A DNA stretch of 20,058 nt from a virus. Positions 2,864 through 20,058 of this stretch are shown piece by piece. The stretch is taken from positions 1 through 20,058 of IMG/VR virus record IMGVR_UViG_3300017986_001421; one strand, written 5' to 3'. A model generated the notes under the pieces. That model did no database searches, was not told the DNA's origin, and worked only from the letters and a program-made list of their open reading frames with translations. A program made the translations under genes and the position numbers. Position 1 is the stretch's first letter, and the number at the start of each line of letters is the position of its first letter.

Positions 2864-3307
2864 ATGACATTAGAAGAAATATTAGAAGAGTGGGCAACTG
2901 ACTCTAAACTACCTAATATTAATCTAGATGAAGCCTCAAGAGAAACACCATCACTACATTCTAAGTATCTGTCTATCTTGTCAAATGCTAAGTTGCGTTT
3001 GAAGAAAGCAGAGATGGATCAAAAGTCTTTATTAAAACAAAAGTTTCTTTACTACAACGGCAAGCTATCTAAAGACGAAATAGATGCTTTAGGTTGGGAC
3101 TATGATCCTATGGATGGACTAAAGATCTTAAAAGGTGAAATGGATTACTATTATGATTCCGATAAAGATATCCAAGCATCTGAACTTAAAATACAGTACT
3201 ATAAAACTATTATAGATACACTAAATGAAATCGTAAATAATCTAAACTGGCGTCATCAGACAATCAGTAATATGATTAAGTGGAAGGTATTTGAAGCCGG
3301 TGGCTGA
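2864..3307 (+). CDS. uvsY: UvsY recombination mediator
   Basis: This 147-residue protein aligns along its length with T4 UvsY (137 residues). Shared features are a MTLEEILEEW start like MRLEDLQEEL, a central LLKQKFLYYNGKLS matching the ALKARLDYYSG stretch, then a D-x-D-x-x segment and the ending KVFEAG like RAFEAGK. UvsY loads the UvsX recombinase onto single-stranded DNA coated with gp32. I chose the ATG at 2864 because GGAG lies seven bases before it and it matches the family start; a TTG four codons earlier has no ribosome site. Its end overlaps the start of uvsW. Confidence 0.95.
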   Translation: MTLEEILEEWATDSKLPNINLDEASRETPSLHSKYLSILSNAKLRLKKAEMDQKSLLKQKFLYYNGKLSKDEIDALGWDYDPMDGLKILKGEMDYYYDSDKDIQASELKIQYYKTIIDTLNEIVNNLNWRHQTISNMIKWKVFEAGG

Positions 3308-4799
3308 TATAGTATGTAAACTTAGAGACTATAGTACATTAGAAGTGGACACTGATAGTGCATTAGCTGCAGAACTCAGTGACCACTTTTCTTTTTATGT
3401 GCCTGGTTATAGATGGATGCCAGCGTATAAAAATAAAGTGTGGGATGGTAAGATAAGACTGTTTAATCGCATAAACGGTGAGCTTCCCGCAGGGCTATAT
3501 TCTTATTTGTTAAAGTTTGCAACTCAGCGATCATATACTGTTGACACTCAAGAGTCGGATCAGTATGGCTTTCCGATTCCTCCTCAACAACCTCTTCCAA
3601 ATATGTCTGATTTACTAGCTGACCCAAAGCTTCCATTTCAGCCTCGAGTCTATCAATACGATGCGATTGAAACAGCCCTATCAAGAAGTCGAGCAATTTT
3701 ATTATCTCCTACTGGATCTGGCAAGTCATTCATTATTTATCTAATGATGAAATACTGGCTTTACTATTTATCAGATGGTTGGAAATATCCTAAAGCAGGA
3801 AGAGTGCTAGTGATTGTTCCAACAACATCTCTAGTTGAACAAATGCATCAAGACTTTATTGACTATGGTTTCAGTCAGGATGGTATGCATAGAATATATT
3901 CTGGTAGAGATAAGAACGCAGATAAAGCTGTTATAATTTCAACTTGGCAATCAATATATAAGTTTCCACCAAAATGGTTTCAACAGTTTGGTATGGTGAT
4001 TGGTGATGAGTGTCATGGATTTAAATCCAAGTCTCTATCGTCAATAATGAACAAAGCAACTGAAGCTAAATATAGATATGGACTAACAGGCACACTAGAT
4101 GGTACACAAACACACAGACTAGTTCTTGAAGGATTATTTGGTCCTGTGTATCAAGTAACTAAAACAAAATCATTGCAAGATGATGGTACTTTAGCAGCAC
4201 TAGACATAAAAGTTCTTTTGTTAAATTACTCAGAGAAAGTAAGGAAAGACTTTGGAAAGAAAACTTATCAAGAAGAAATCGAGTTCATTATTGGACACCC
4301 TGTTCGTAATCGCCTTATTTGTAATCTCGCTTTGGATGCTAAAGGAAATACTCTCATCTTATATAATCGTGTGGACGCTCATGGAAAGCCTCTCTACGAA
4401 CTTATAAATAGTAAGGTAGAAGAAGGTAGAAAAGTTTTTTTTATATCTGGTGATGTTGAAGCCTCTGATCGTGAAATGATTAGAAAAATAGTGGAGAAAC
4501 AAAAAAATGCTATTATTGTTGCAAGCCTTGGGACTTTTAGTACTGGTATCAATATTCGTAATCTGCACAATATCGTCTTTGCTAGCCCGTCAAAGTCTCA
4601 AATTAAAGTTTTACAGAGTATCGGAAGAGGGTTACGCCAATCCGATGACGGAAGAAGCACAACGCTCTATGACTTGACTGATGACTTACATTGGAAGAAT
4701 AGAAAGAACTATGCTCTTTTACATGGTGCTGAAAGAGTAAAGATATACAATAAAGAGCAGTTTAAACACAAAGTAATAAAGGTTGACCTTGATGAGTGA
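3300..4799 (+). CDS. uvsW: UvsW RNA-DNA and DNA helicase
   Basis: This superfamily 2 helicase of 499 residues compares with 503 in T4. The N-terminal domain has the UvsW pattern ...FSFYVPGYRWMP...WDGKIRLFN...LPAGLY. Helicase motifs follow: Walker A PTGSGKS (137-143), motif II DECH (236-239), motif III GLTGT, and motif VI QSIGRGLRQ (439-447). UvsW unwinds R-loops, Holliday junctions and stalled forks, and in T4 drives the change from origin to recombination-dependent replication. I place the start at GTG 3300, overlapping the uvsY stop by eight bases, since this fits the T4 N-terminus; a TTG at 3291 is the alternative. Neither has a strong ribosome site, so coupling to uvsY translation is likely. 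Confidence 0.95.
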   Translation: MADIVCKLRDYSTLEVDTDSALAAELSDHFSFYVPGYRWMPAYKNKVWDGKIRLFNRINGELPAGLYSYLLKFATQRSYTVDTQESDQYGFPIPPQQPLPNMSDLLADPKLPFQPRVYQYDAIETALSRSRAILLSPTGSGKSFIIYLMMKYWLYYLSDGWKYPKAGRVLVIVPTTSLVEQMHQDFIDYGFSQDGMHRIYSGRDKNADKAVIISTWQSIYKFPPKWFQQFGMVIGDECHGFKSKSLSSIMNKATEAKYRYGLTGTLDGTQTHRLVLEGLFGPVYQVTKTKSLQDDGTLAALDIKVLLLNYSEKVRKDFGKKTYQEEIEFIIGHPVRNRLICNLALDAKGNTLILYNRVDAHGKPLYELINSKVEEGRKVFFISGDVEASDREMIRKIVEKQKNAIIVASLGTFSTGINIRNLHNIVFASPSKSQIKVLQSIGRGLRQSDDGRSTTLYDLTDDLHWKNRKNYALLHGAERVKIYNKEQFKHKVIKVDLDE

Positions 4800-5202
4800 A
4801 GTAAGACAACTAAAGCTGAGTTCTGGCGAAGAGGTTATATGTCAAGTGTTAGACTGGGCAGACGAAGAGAACGGTGATATTATCGTAAGGCATGTTTATA
4901 AAGTAACAACTATTGACGATGATGCACGTGGATTGAGACTATATAACTTAAGACCTTGGATGACAATGCAAGAAGGTGATGATATGTTTATAAACTTAAA
5001 CATCATGCACGTGATTGCGCAAGCCAAGCCAGATAGTAAACTTGAAACTCAGTTCAAAGGTGCTGTTAAACACTCTAATATGACAGAGGAAGAACTTGAA
5101 CAAAAAGTTCAAGACTATATAGATCAAATGAGAAATAGCTTGAACGAAGATGAAGACTTTGATAATGTTATAAGTTTCCCAGGAAACGACAAGATACACT
5201 AG
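4792..5202 (+). CDS. Conserved small protein of unknown function, possible Sm/SH3-like barrel
   Basis: This 136-residue protein starts MSEVRQLKLSSGEEVICQVLDW, and the ATG overlaps the uvsW stop by eight bases. The first 80 residues alternate hydrophobic and polar residues with a SGEEV turn, as in small beta-barrel folds of the Sm or SH3 type (fold guess only). The C-terminal third is acidic and helical (MTEEELEQKVQDYIDQM) and ends in a low-complexity DEDFDN segment. A similar gene often follows uvsW in marine T4-like phages, from memory. It is the last gene of the uvsY-uvsW operon. An antisense promoter points into its 3' end from 5234-5261. Confidence 0.75.
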   Translation: MSEVRQLKLSSGEEVICQVLDWADEENGDIIVRHVYKVTTIDDDARGLRLYNLRPWMTMQEGDDMFINLNIMHVIAQAKPDSKLETQFKGAVKHSNMTEEELEQKVQDYIDQMRNSLNEDEDFDNVISFPGNDKIH

Positions 5203-5233
5203 TATACTCACCCACCTCAAAAGCCTCTCTTTA

Positions 5234-5261
5234 ATTATACAGATTTTTACTGATTCGTCAA
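5234..5261 (-). promoter_or_regulatory. Antisense sigma-70 type promoter
   Basis: On the minus strand TTGACG (5256-5261) is followed by 16 bases and a perfect TATAAT (5234-5239). The predicted start near 5227 would give a transcript antisense to the 3' end of the 4792-5202 gene and then uvsW. No credible protein gene lies downstream on that strand. The first 11 bases and the ATCTG before the -10 box match the promoter before hsp20. Confidence 0.65.
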
Positions 5262-5275
5262 GTACTTTTTTTAAG

Positions 5276-5304
5276 TTGACAAGATAAAAAATATTCGATA
5301 AAAT
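5276..5304 (+). promoter_or_regulatory. Sigma-70 type promoter for gene 55 operon
   Basis: A perfect TTGACA (5276-5281), 17 bases and TAAAAT (5299-5304) lie 22 bases before the gp55 ATG, in an AT-rich spacer. It diverges from the antisense promoter at 5234-5261; the -35 boxes are 14 bases apart. It would let host RNA polymerase make the late sigma factor early. Confidence 0.78.
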
Positions 5305-5326: not shown

Positions 5327-5926
5327 ATGGCAAGACAAAAACGAAAAAATATTCATTATGTAAATAACAAAGAGTTTTCACAAGCTGTTGTAGAATACTG
5401 TGTAAGCGTAAAAGAAGCAAAAGATAGCAAAGCAGATTTACCTATTGTTCCCAACTACATCGCTGAATGTTTTTTAAAGATAGCTGAAGGATTGTCGCAC
5501 AAGGCAAACTTTATTCGCTATACTTATCGTGAAGAAATGGTTATGGATGCTGTTGAGAATTGTCTTAAAGCCATAGAGAACTATAATATAGAAGCTGCAA
5601 CTCGCACTGGTAATCCGAATGCGTTTGCTTATTTCACCCAGATTTCGTGGTATGCCTTTCTTAGACGTATTGCTAAAGAAAAGAAACAACAAGACATCAA
5701 GCTAAAGTATATGACATCATCTGGGGTTGAAGAATATATTATGTCGAATGGTGATGAAGGTTCTAATACAGTGGTACAAGCCTTTGTTGATCAGTTGAAA
5801 GATCGCATTGATAAAGTAAAAGAAAAAGATAGTGAGTTTAAAATCTTTGCAGAAGAAGAAAAGAAAAAGGCAAAGAGAATGAAGAAAACTATCTCAGTAG
5901 ATTCGGACTTAAGTAACTTCTTATGA
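5327..5926 (+). CDS. 55: Late-transcription sigma factor gp55
   Basis: This 199-residue protein is like T4 gp55 (185 residues). It opens with the family YVNNKEF segment, followed by FLKIAEGLSHKANFIRYTYREEMVMDAVENCLKAIENYN, the sigma region 2-like core that binds RNA polymerase and melts the promoter. NPNAFAYFTQISWYAFLRRIAKEKK then matches T4 [21 protein letters not shown]. gp55 recognises TATAAATA promoters. The C-terminus SDLSNFL resembles the hydrophobic tail by which T4 gp55 binds the sliding clamp gp45 (inference). An AAGGA ribosome site precedes the ATG, and the stop overlaps the next gene (ATGA). Confidence 0.96.
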   Translation: MARQKRKNIHYVNNKEFSQAVVEYCVSVKEAKDSKADLPIVPNYIAECFLKIAEGLSHKANFIRYTYREEMVMDAVENCLKAIENYNIEAATRTGNPNAFAYFTQISWYAFLRRIAKEKKQQDIKLKYMTSSGVEEYIMSNGDEGSNTVVQAFVDQLKDRIDKVKEKDSEFKIFAEEEKKKAKRMKKTISVDSDLSNFL

Positions 5927-6351
5927 AAATATTAGTAATGGGATTGCCTGGTGCTGGTAAAACACACTTTGCAGTTCGTCTTCAAAATCATTTAAACTGC
6001 GCTTGGTATAACGCTGATGCAGTTCGCAAAATGGCGAATGATTGGGATTTTAGTGATGAAGCTAGAATCCGACAAGCAAGCAGAATGAGAAACTTAGCAG
6101 ACTTTGAAAAAGGATTTGGGCGCACGGTTATCTGTGACTTTGTTTGTCCAACAAAACATACAAGATATATTTTTGAAGCAGATGTTACGATCTGGTTGAA
6201 TACCATTGTTGCTGGAAGATTTCAAGACACTAATGTTATTTTTGAAGATCCAGAAAACGTAGATTATACTATAGATCATTTTATGAGTGATGAAGAAATA
6301 CAAGGAATAGCAGAATGTTTGATTGGCAAAAACCCACAGTACAAATGTTAG
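5923..6351 (+). CDS. P-loop kinase resembling adenylylsulfate (APS) kinase
   Basis: This 142-residue protein has a Walker A GLPGAGKT (7-14). Further on are NADAVRK, the counterpart of the APS kinase DGDNVR motif, and DWDFSDEARIRQASR, like the FSxEDRxENIRR helix. VICDFVCPTKHTR corresponds to the AFISPxxxxR segment. APS kinases phosphorylate adenylyl sulfate to PAPS. The Asp-Gly-Asp of the family is replaced by Asn-Ala-Asp, so the substrate may differ; relatives also act on small nucleotides or nucleic acid ends. It overlaps gp55 by four bases and the following nucleotidyltransferase by 37 bases, so the two enzymes are probably made together. Confidence 0.75.
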   Translation: MKILVMGLPGAGKTHFAVRLQNHLNCAWYNADAVRKMANDWDFSDEARIRQASRMRNLADFEKGFGRTVICDFVCPTKHTRYIFEADVTIWLNTIVAGRFQDTNVIFEDPENVDYTIDHFMSDEEIQGIAECLIGKNPQYKC

Positions 6352-6722
6352 GACGGTGGCAACCTTGGCACGATGGGCATACTGAACTATTCAAAAATGC
6401 ACTTGACATTACAGGACAAGTTGCTATAATGGTACGTGATGTATATAACTTCAAAGGTGACGCTGGTGCAGGCCGCACGGTTGCCCAAGATGATAATCCA
6501 TTTGGTATGATTCAAGTTGTTGAAAATATTCAAAAGAGTTTGGAAGTACATGGATATCGTGACGGTTATGAGTACATCATCATGGAAGTACCTAATATTG
6601 TTGATATCAGTTATGGTCGTGGAGTTGGATACACATTTACTGAACATGACTTAGGTGCTTTTATTCATAACATTTCTGCTACTAATATTAGAAAGCAAAT
6701 GAGAGAAGATGGCAAACTTTAA
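6315..6722 (+). CDS. HxGH-motif nucleotidyltransferase (cytidylyltransferase-like)
   Basis: This 135-residue protein carries GRWQPWHDGH (13-22), with the HxGH ATP-binding signature of the nucleotidylyltransferase alpha/beta phosphodiesterase superfamily. The ISATNIRKQ stretch (120-128) matches the ISxTxxR motif that closes over ATP. This family includes NMN, pantetheine-phosphate and glycerol-3-phosphate nucleotidyltransferases and FAD synthases, and ATP sulfurylase is related. The GRxQPxHxGH form is nearest to NadM/NMN adenylyltransferase-like proteins, but the substrate cannot be told from sequence. It overlaps the CysC-like kinase by 37 bases. A perfect-consensus promoter lies inside it at 6403-6430. 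Confidence 0.78.
   Translation: MFDWQKPTVQMLGRWQPWHDGHTELFKNALDITGQVAIMVRDVYNFKGDAGAGRTVAQDDNPFGMIQVVENIQKSLEVHGYRDGYEYIIMEVPNIVDISYGRGVGYTFTEHDLGAFIHNISATNIRKQMREDGKL
6403..6430 (+). promoter_or_regulatory. Intragenic consensus sigma-70 promoter upstream of genes 47 and 46
   Basis: A perfect TTGACA (6403-6408), a 16-base spacer and a perfect TATAAT (6425-6430) lie inside the nucleotidyltransferase gene, about 290 bases before gp47. It reads toward 47, 46, 45 and 44 and could be their early promoter. Both hexamers are exact matches to the bacterial consensus, which is rare by chance. Confidence 0.6.
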
Positions 6723-18341: not shown

Positions 18342-18366
18342 CATTCTAAATAATATTTTATATACT
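18338..18366 (+). promoter_or_regulatory. Sigma-70 type promoter for DNA polymerase gene 43
   Basis: A perfect TTGACA (18338-18343), 17 bases and TATACT (18361-18366) lie 27 bases before the gp43 ATG. The predicted start near 18373 gives a leader of about 20 bases that contains the AGGAGG ribosome site. Confidence 0.78.
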
Positions 18367-18393
18367 GTAAGCTAGTGTAAGTTAGGAGGCTGT

Positions 18394-20058
18394 ATGAACT
18401 TTTACACGAGCGTTAACAGATATGGTAGTTCTATTTTATACCGTGGGGTAAACGAGAGCGGAAACCGTATCGAAAAGCGAATAAAATTTGAACCCACGTT
18501 ACATGTACTTTCCCCAAAACAAAATACTAAATGTAAATCTCTTGATGGACATCCATTAGAGGAGATAAAGTTTGGTTCTATGGCTGAAGCAAAAGATTTT
18601 ATGCAGAAGTACAAGGACGTAGAAAACTTTGACATTTATGGCAATCAAAACTTTGTTCAACAGTTTATCACACAAAAGTTTCCAAGAGAGATTGAGTTTG
18701 ACGCTAGTAAGATTAATGTTGTAAACATTGATATTGAGGTTGCATCAGACGAAGGATTTCCATTCCCTGAAGATGCTGCTCACCCAGTAATCTCTATTGC
18801 GTTGAAGTCTAGTCTGAGTGATGTTTATCACGTTTGGGGGCTTGATGCTTATGATGCAGAAAATGCATACTCAGATAAAATACTTGTTCAATATCGTCAC
18901 TGTAAAAACGAGATAGAACTACTCGCAAAGTTTGTTGAGTATTGGAGAAACAATAGCCCAGATGTAATCACAGGTTGGAACGTCAGACTTTTTGATATTC
19001 CCTACCTTGTAAATCGTATTAATCGTGTTGGTTCTCAAGATGCAGTCAAAAGACTGTCACCGTGGGGATTGGTTTCAAAACGTGAACTTGCTATCAAAGG
19101 CAAGCGGATGGATGCTTACGAACTAACAGGCATTCAACAACTTGACTACTACGATCTGTTTCAGAAGTTTGGATATTCGTATGGCGCACAAGAGTCATAT
19201 AAGCTAGATCATATTGCTTACGTGGTCTTAGGTGAACGTAAACTATCCTATGAAGAACATGGTAATCTTTATACATTATACAAAGAAGATCATCAGAAGT
19301 TCATTGACTATAACATTCGGGACGTTGAACTGATTGAACGTATAGAGGAAAAGATGGGGCTTATCACTCTCGCTATGACTATGGCATATAAGGGTGGTGT
19401 GAACTACAGTGACACCTTTGGCACAACTGCAATATGGGACTCCATCATCTATAGAGAACTGAATAGTAAAAATATTATTGTTCCACCAAATAAACATAAA
19501 ACAAAATCGTCATATCCTGGCGGCTATGTAAAAGAGCCGTATGTTGGTGCGCATGATTGGGTTGTCTCCTTTGACTTGAACTCACTATATCCTAACCTGA
19601 TCGTTCAATATAATATGTCACCAGAAACTCTTTGCACAGAGTATACATTCCCTTCAGGCGTTGATCAGTACTTATTGCATTCAACTTCAATCAATGAGAA
19701 CGTATCCGTTGCAGCAAATGGATCTTGTTACTATAAAGATCAGCAAGGTATTCTACCAAAGATTATTGAAAGCTATTATGAAGAACGTAAAGCGGTCAAA
19801 AAGCAAATGCTTGTTGCACAACAAGAGTATGAGAAACAAAAAACTGTCGAGTTAGAGAGGCAGATCAATCAACTCGAAAACAGACAAATGGCAATCAAAA
19901 TCCTTTTGGACTCTTTGTATGGTGCACTAGGTAATCAATACTTTAGATACTTTGATATGCGTATAGCAGAAGGTATTACTTTGTCAGGTCAATTATCCAT
20001 TCGATGGGCAGAGAATGCGATCAACAAAGAGATGAACAAAATACTAAAAACAAGTGGA
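18394..20058 (+). CDS. 43: DNA polymerase gp43 (N-terminal 555 residues, cut by window end)
   Basis: This is a family B polymerase. Exonuclease motifs are NIDIEV (Exo I; D113, E115), GWNVRLFD (Exo II; N196, D201) and YNIRD (Exo III; Y306, D310), so proofreading should be active. Polymerase motif A is SFDLNSLYP (D394). Motif B begins at K502 as KILLDSLYGALGNQYF, where the family has KxxxNSxYG; here Asn is replaced by Asp506. Motif C lies past the window end. The protein is about 60 residues shorter than RB69 gp43 by this point. The ATG at 18394 follows a strong AGGAGG. T4 gp43 can repress its own translation, but I see no clear operator hairpin here. Confidence 0.97.
   Translation, partial: MNFYTSVNRYGSSILYRGVNESGNRIEKRIKFEPTLHVLSPKQNTKCKSLDGHPLEEIKFGSMAEAKDFMQKYKDVENFDIYGNQNFVQQFITQKFPREIEFDASKINVVNIDIEVASDEGFPFPEDAAHPVISIALKSSLSDVYHVWGLDAYDAENAYSDKILVQYRHCKNEIELLAKFVEYWRNNSPDVITGWNVRLFDIPYLVNRINRVGSQDAVKRLSPWGLVSKRELAIKGKRMDAYELTGIQQLDYYDLFQKFGYSYGAQESYKLDHIAYVVLGERKLSYEEHGNLYTLYKEDHQKFIDYNIRDVELIERIEEKMGLITLAMTMAYKGGVNYSDTFGTTAIWDSIIYRELNSKNIIVPPNKHKTKSSYPGGYVKEPYVGAHDWVVSFDLNSLYPNLIVQYNMSPETLCTEYTFPSGVDQYLLHSTSINENVSVAANGSCYYKDQQGILPKIIESYYEERKAVKKQMLVAQQEYEKQKTVELERQINQLENRQMAIKILLDSLYGALGNQYFRYFDMRIAEGITLSGQLSIRWAENAINKEMNKILKTSG

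Follow-up and report, generated by a model that had tools for sequence, protein, structure and literature searches.

Introduction

Few viruses of marine bacteria are as common as the T4-like phages. In T4, initiation at oriF, also called ori(uvsY), depends on a promoter and on an R-loop that primes replication; UvsW later takes this R-loop apart (PMC3016281). The origin is on the strand opposite to uvsW, beyond the 3′ end of that gene. It is driven by a MotA-dependent promoter, downstream of which lies an AT-rich unwinding element; the transcript is the uvsY mRNA and heads for the 3′ end of uvsW. R-loops are reported to initiate more readily at G clusters (Roy and Lieber 2009, as cited by PMC10704377). 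In the accessible literature the only origin named is a single theta origin predicted for cyanophage Syn9; in S-PM2 an RNA of ~225 nt, CfrI, has been detected opposite psbA and a homing endonuclease (both PMC2984593).

The window analysed here comprises the 20,058 nt of a 20-kb IMG/VR entry that belongs to a T4-like marine phage. Upstream of gene 55 it carries a promoter on the minus strand that leads to no gene. Like oriF, this element lies at a gene end beside uvsW, on the opposite strand and directed at the uvsW 3′ end; it is promoter-driven and neighbours the gene whose helicase product takes R-loops apart. It differs from oriF in having no gene, no MotA box and no downstream AT-rich element, and in having a palindrome at its start. 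Direct homology to oriF was considered and was not seen, the T4 origin having a MotA box and neither a palindrome nor a G-cluster at its start. With CfrI the element has in common that it is non-coding, is antisense to phage genes, and consists of a promoter opposite a protein gene without an ORF of its own; CfrI, however, is a detected and defined RNA of a T4-like cyanophage, whereas the minus element lies elsewhere, occurs family-wide and is predicted from sequence. Finally, the element resembles the host-like sigma70 promoters of T4-like cyanophages (TTGACA-17-TATAAT, with the same −35 dialect of the genome) but is antisense and gene-less, with a palindrome and a G-rich start that are absent from 116 sense promoters. 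Since it lacks one defining feature of each, we file it under neither oriF nor CfrI-type RNA. It is new as a promoter in being antisense and gene-less and in having a start-centred palindrome.

Judged by the loci compared below, minus-strand positions 5202–5261 are a conserved, gene-less promoter module of sigma70 type, present once per genome and opposing the 3′ end of uvsY-uvsW-X. Its parts are the promoter, the palindrome around the putative start, and a G-rich or purine-rich first 20 nt.

Results

Promoters and genes of the locus

PHROG matches in the window include gp23, UvsY, UvsW, gene X, gp55 and the sliding clamp (features of the locus are collected in Table 1). A T4-type late promoter, TATAAATA, at 2263–2270 lies ahead of gp3-uvsY-uvsW-X and immediately precedes gp3, the gene upstream of uvsY. 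The S-PM2 homologue of gene X matches Pfam Sm_like (PF16243, E = 1.4e-10); the cyanophage annotation 'methylamine utilization' for this gene looks wrong, the family being Sm-like.

Table 1. Features of the uvsW–gene 55 locus, in window coordinates.
Feature	Position	Strand	Evidence
uvsW helicase; second gene in the path of the minus transcript, after X	3291..4799	+	PHROG 16, E=1.6e-106
Gene X (T4-GC 139), Sm-like family; faces the minus transcript	4792..5202	+	PHROGs 527/471
Conserved GTATAC, outer border of the module; overlaps last base of X stop codon	5202..5207		Relatives
G-rich first transcribed stretch (predicted), GAGGTGGGTGAG	5207..5218	-	G-cluster in relatives
Small palindrome AAAG-AGAGG-CTTT, weak copy; abuts -10, straddles expected start	5219..5233	-	Swap test in relatives
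Expected start of minus transcript, G	5227	-	7th base after -10, inferred from spacing
Antisense promoter -10 hexamer TATAAT, 16-nt spacer	5234..5239	-	Conserved in relatives
Antisense promoter -35 hexamer TTGACG	5256..5261	-	Position conserved in relatives
Gene 55 promoter, host-like, TTGACA-17-TAAAAT	5276..5304	+	11/12 match; conserved in relatives
gp55, late sigma factor	5327..5926	+	PHROG 234, E=2.8e-51

The initial annotation placed a divergent promoter pair here, and both members were confirmed, each with a score of 11/12 (plus, 5276–5304; minus, TTGACG-16-TATAAT at 5261–5234). The AT-rich window has many matches at the loose threshold (94, where shuffles predict 73); only five sites in the 20 kb score at least 11/12, and the pair upstream of gp55 accounts for two of these. 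The plus promoter leads to gp55 (5327) and is also conserved in relatives; its proposed role in serving that gene is supported. The minus promoter reads into X and uvsW in the antisense direction. The statement that no credible protein gene lies downstream of it holds: the ORFs that start within the first 60 nt of the minus RNA are short, those of different phages are not related, and none is shared among the relatives.

Conservation and −35 dialect

Eighty gp55 homologues were fetched and the gap upstream of each was read. A minus promoter with 16–18 nt spacing, in the same register, was found in 58 of 64 non-redundant qualifying X-gp55 gaps. In a second set, of cyanophage-type non-redundant gaps, 60/62 had TTGACA or TTGACG at 17-nt spacing, with TATAAT, TACAAT, TAGAAT or similar as the −10. 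Full-gap shuffles are weak for single loci, given the high AT content (many p values of 0.05–0.3); the strength of the result lies in the fixed register across loci. The promoter is retained in phages of both cyanobacteria and SAR11, and cultured phages that carry it are Syn1, S-PM2, Syn9, P-SSM2, P-SSM4, P-HM1, Pelagibacter phage HTVC008M and C48C1; in Methylophilales phage Melnitz-3 the match is weaker (TTGACA ... TATATT).

Whole-contig searches showed that in three contigs of 98–123 kb TTTACA/TGTACA-17-TATAAT sites are numerous and TTGACA sites absent, while TTGACA predominates in the other contigs searched. The −35 of the minus promoter always matches the dialect of its own genome, which argues that the element is of a functional promoter type. 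The dialect differs even among closely related marine T4-like phages (contigs of L018, L030 and L043 versus those of L061, L077 and L082); it may track the host sigma factor, and could then aid host assignment.

Exact consensus promoters in six long contigs numbered ~87 in gene sense and 9 in antisense. Six of the nine were the minus element, one per contig, and this was the sole antisense type common to all six; of two other antisense sites, one stands ahead of an ORF facing the other way and one is inside coding sequence. In Syn9 (177 kb), the element, with a predicted start near position 123,703, is among three strong minus-strand sites and is the only intergenic one.

Host-like promoters reportedly drive the middle genes of Syn9, and on that assignment the minus RNA is more likely to be middle than early. 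A search of the accessible literature found no description of the minus-promoter element; the Syn9 transcriptome (Doron et al. 2016) may already contain the minus transcript.

The palindrome around the expected start

The palindrome follows the −10 hexamer without a gap, which puts a start at the normal distance of 7 nt inside its loop; in cyanophages, the G at the expected-start spacing is conserved within the loop TGT. Perfect stems of at least 5 bp occurred in 31% of 58 loci, compared with 1% in shuffles and none among the plus promoters of the same gaps, and a 5-bp Watson–Crick palindrome was absent from all 116 of the sense promoters examined in four genomes. Since variable loop length misaligns the arms, alignment-based pair counting was replaced by a swap test, in which each left arm was compared with its own right side and with that of other phages. 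The arms co-varied, with z = 7.7 for cyanophages and 4.9 for the others, although ~40% of non-cyanophage loci had no clear palindrome. Cyanophage arms include AACTC/GGGTT, AACCT/AGGTT, AACAG/CTGTT, AACTG/CAGTT and CACTC/GGGTG. Non-Watson–Crick pairs in cyanophages were G·T on the minus strand in 49 of 49 cases and on the plus strand in none, many of them sharing one ancestral state; folding would thus be on the minus strand.

Two other uses of the palindrome were rejected. A regulator binding site was set aside because the half-sites differ between phages and the spacer varies from ~2 to 8, which a structure fits better. A 5′ hairpin in the minus RNA does not suit a palindrome that begins right after the −10, with the normal start in its loop.

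First transcribed bases and extent of conservation

A G-cluster was found within +1 to +20 in 64% of 69 non-cyanophage loci, the background frequency being 0.9% and that at sense promoters 3%. In cyanophages the first bases are purine-rich, mostly without a G-cluster. Conservation ends ~25 nt into the minus RNA: L003 and L004, for example, match up to the GTATAC border and diverge once past the upstream gene's stop codon. Minus-strand terminators within 300 nt showed no excess, with 16/69 loci against 16 in a codon-shuffled control. In the window there is a weak terminator-like hairpin (5113–5095), of a class that does not recur in the relatives, and the sole Rfam match is the tRNA at 1916–1989, with none at the minus promoter. 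The conserved unit is a promoter and ~25 bases, with a start-centred structure and no fixed target, pointing to a role of transcription in cis and not to a defined RNA body.

A GTTTCC/GGAAAC inverted repeat noted earlier within the transcript (5174–5187) is present, but it encodes part of the X C-terminus, is already lost in the closest relative, L001, and looks accidental.

Insertions on either side of the element

In twelve loci (group A: L003, L005, L007, L012–L015, L017, L027, L054, L055 and L076), an extra ORF lies between X and the gap, and the element still adjoins gp55 while facing an unrelated gene. In eleven others (group B: L046, L051, L052, L057, L061, L062, L065, L068, L071, L077 and L078), at least one ORF lies between the two promoters, always including a cytidylyltransferase-like ORF (Pfam PF01467 in L061). 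The group B minus promoter is always a perfect TTGACA-17-TATAAT directly after X, and gp55 retains its own promoter. In L051, the start codon of the inserted gene lies inside the minus −35 without a plus promoter, so that expression of this gene requires plus transcription to pass through the element. The region upstream of gp55 is thus an insertion hot spot, which in group B phages has received the cytidylyltransferase-like gene exactly between the two promoters.

As insertions on either side leave it intact, the element is neither a fixed control region of gp55 nor a strict plus-strand terminator. Because they separate it from the gp55 promoter or from X, its antisense target is not fixed either. 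In all cases uvsW and X lie within ~0.5–1.8 kb in its path. An unfixed target argues against a dedicated RNA that silences uvsW and favours a cis role of transcription itself.

Discussion

The minus RNA probably acts on the spot, perhaps by beginning DNA copying or by opposing late genes. A gene-less cis-element common to cyanophages and SAR11 phages points to an essential infection step overlooked by annotation. Of the possible uses, we tentatively favour an RNA-primed (R-loop) start of replication, with cis-antisense interference ranked close to it in second place. Replication is suggested by the unique position of the element, its autonomy, a G-rich start that would favour R-loops, a foldable palindrome, and the positional parallel with T4 oriF. 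Host RNA polymerase would initiate at ~5227, and the G-rich RNA would remain paired to the template while the freed minus strand (the non-template) folded into the palindrome. The RNA 3′ end would then prime leading-strand synthesis toward uvsW, and late-made UvsW would unwind such R-loops and so close the origin, as in T4. Against this reading, no AT-rich unwinding element was seen downstream of the minus promoter, where AT content after +20 (0.65) is like background; the AT-rich stretch at these loci lies upstream. The absence of a start palindrome and G-cluster from T4 oriF, the general lack of a G-cluster in cyanophages and the loci without a clear palindrome also count against it. Base-skew profiles do not single the site out but are uninformative, gene orientation and late-gene codon use being their main determinants.

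A wider proposal is more doubtful. Here the element would initiate replication throughout the family of marine T4-like phages, as a module built of a single gene-less promoter, a start in the loop of a hairpin that the non-template strand can form, and a G-rich, R-loop-prone first stretch. Host RNA polymerase would thereby make the first primer, and the module would work like oriF with a different anatomy.

Under cis-antisense control, the minus transcript, or collision of its polymerases with those arriving from the upstream late promoter, would reduce expression at the 3′ end of uvsY-uvsW-X, a late operon, until the late phase. We hold this reading tentatively too, at slightly lower confidence. 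The antisense orientation to the end of the uvsW operon, proposed in the initial annotation, is supported by the geometry and strengthened by its family-wide conservation, with uvsW and X always in its path. Complementarity being automatic, only the promoter would need conserving. The operon of the window has its own T4-type late promoter, T4 UvsW is itself made from a late promoter (PMC3016281), and CfrI shows that S-PM2 produces cis-antisense RNA (PMC2984593). Interference would, however, leave the palindrome at the start and the G-cluster unexplained, and it has to accommodate foreign genes tolerated as first target and the lack of a terminator or defined RNA. The stronger form suggested earlier, a dedicated RNA that holds uvsW down, is unsupported, given that conservation ends at about +25, that a dozen phages have unrelated first targets, that terminators are not enriched and that the repeat at 5174–5187 is not conserved.

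A short trans-acting RNA, whose G-rich 5′ end would pair with other messages or bind the neighbouring Sm-like X protein, is unlikely. The conserved G/purine-rich first 20 nt and the membership of X in the Sm-like family would suit such an RNA, but nothing is conserved beyond ~+25, no terminator or Rfam match was found, and the G-cluster is weak in cyanophages. Slightly less probable again is that the block acts in the plus RNA, as a 3′ hairpin, processing site or Rho-type terminator ending the uvsW operon. The plus strand does read as a stop codon, GTATAC, a C-rich stretch and a small hairpin; this would leave unexplained why a perfect TTGACA-17-TATAAT occurs at a fixed register on the minus strand, why the cyanophage wobble pairs form only on that strand, and how the L051 insertion, which starts in the minus −35 without a plus promoter, is transcribed through the block.

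That one regulator binds both −35s and couples gp55 to the antisense RNA is very improbable. The two −35 hexamers do change together between phages, but this co-variation is explained by the genome-wide dialect and is not local, so the reading is largely refuted. The earlier view of the pair as a single regulatory unit was also wrong, since in 11 loci the inserted cytidylyltransferase gene separates two promoters that both survive. That the resemblance to a promoter arose by chance in AT-rich intergenic sequence, a reading for which the frequency of loose matches in the window might speak, is refuted by conservation at fixed spacing in >100 diverged gaps and can be dismissed.

Other features of the window

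Between gp23 and gp3, the minus strand carries a tRNA gene (1916–1989) and a 70-aa ORF (1990–2202), which have their own promoter (2260–2232) and a bidirectional terminator (1884–1905). Downstream of gp55, the overlapping ORFs 5923–6351 and 6315–6722 match the N- and C-terminal parts of a single PHROG, 10255 ('kinase'), and make up a kinase/nucleotidyltransferase pair that is split or unfused; inside the second of them lies, at 6403–6430, an extended promoter with a perfect 12/12 score. In the last ~1.7 kb of the window (18345–20058), the longest ORF on either strand is at most 77 aa.
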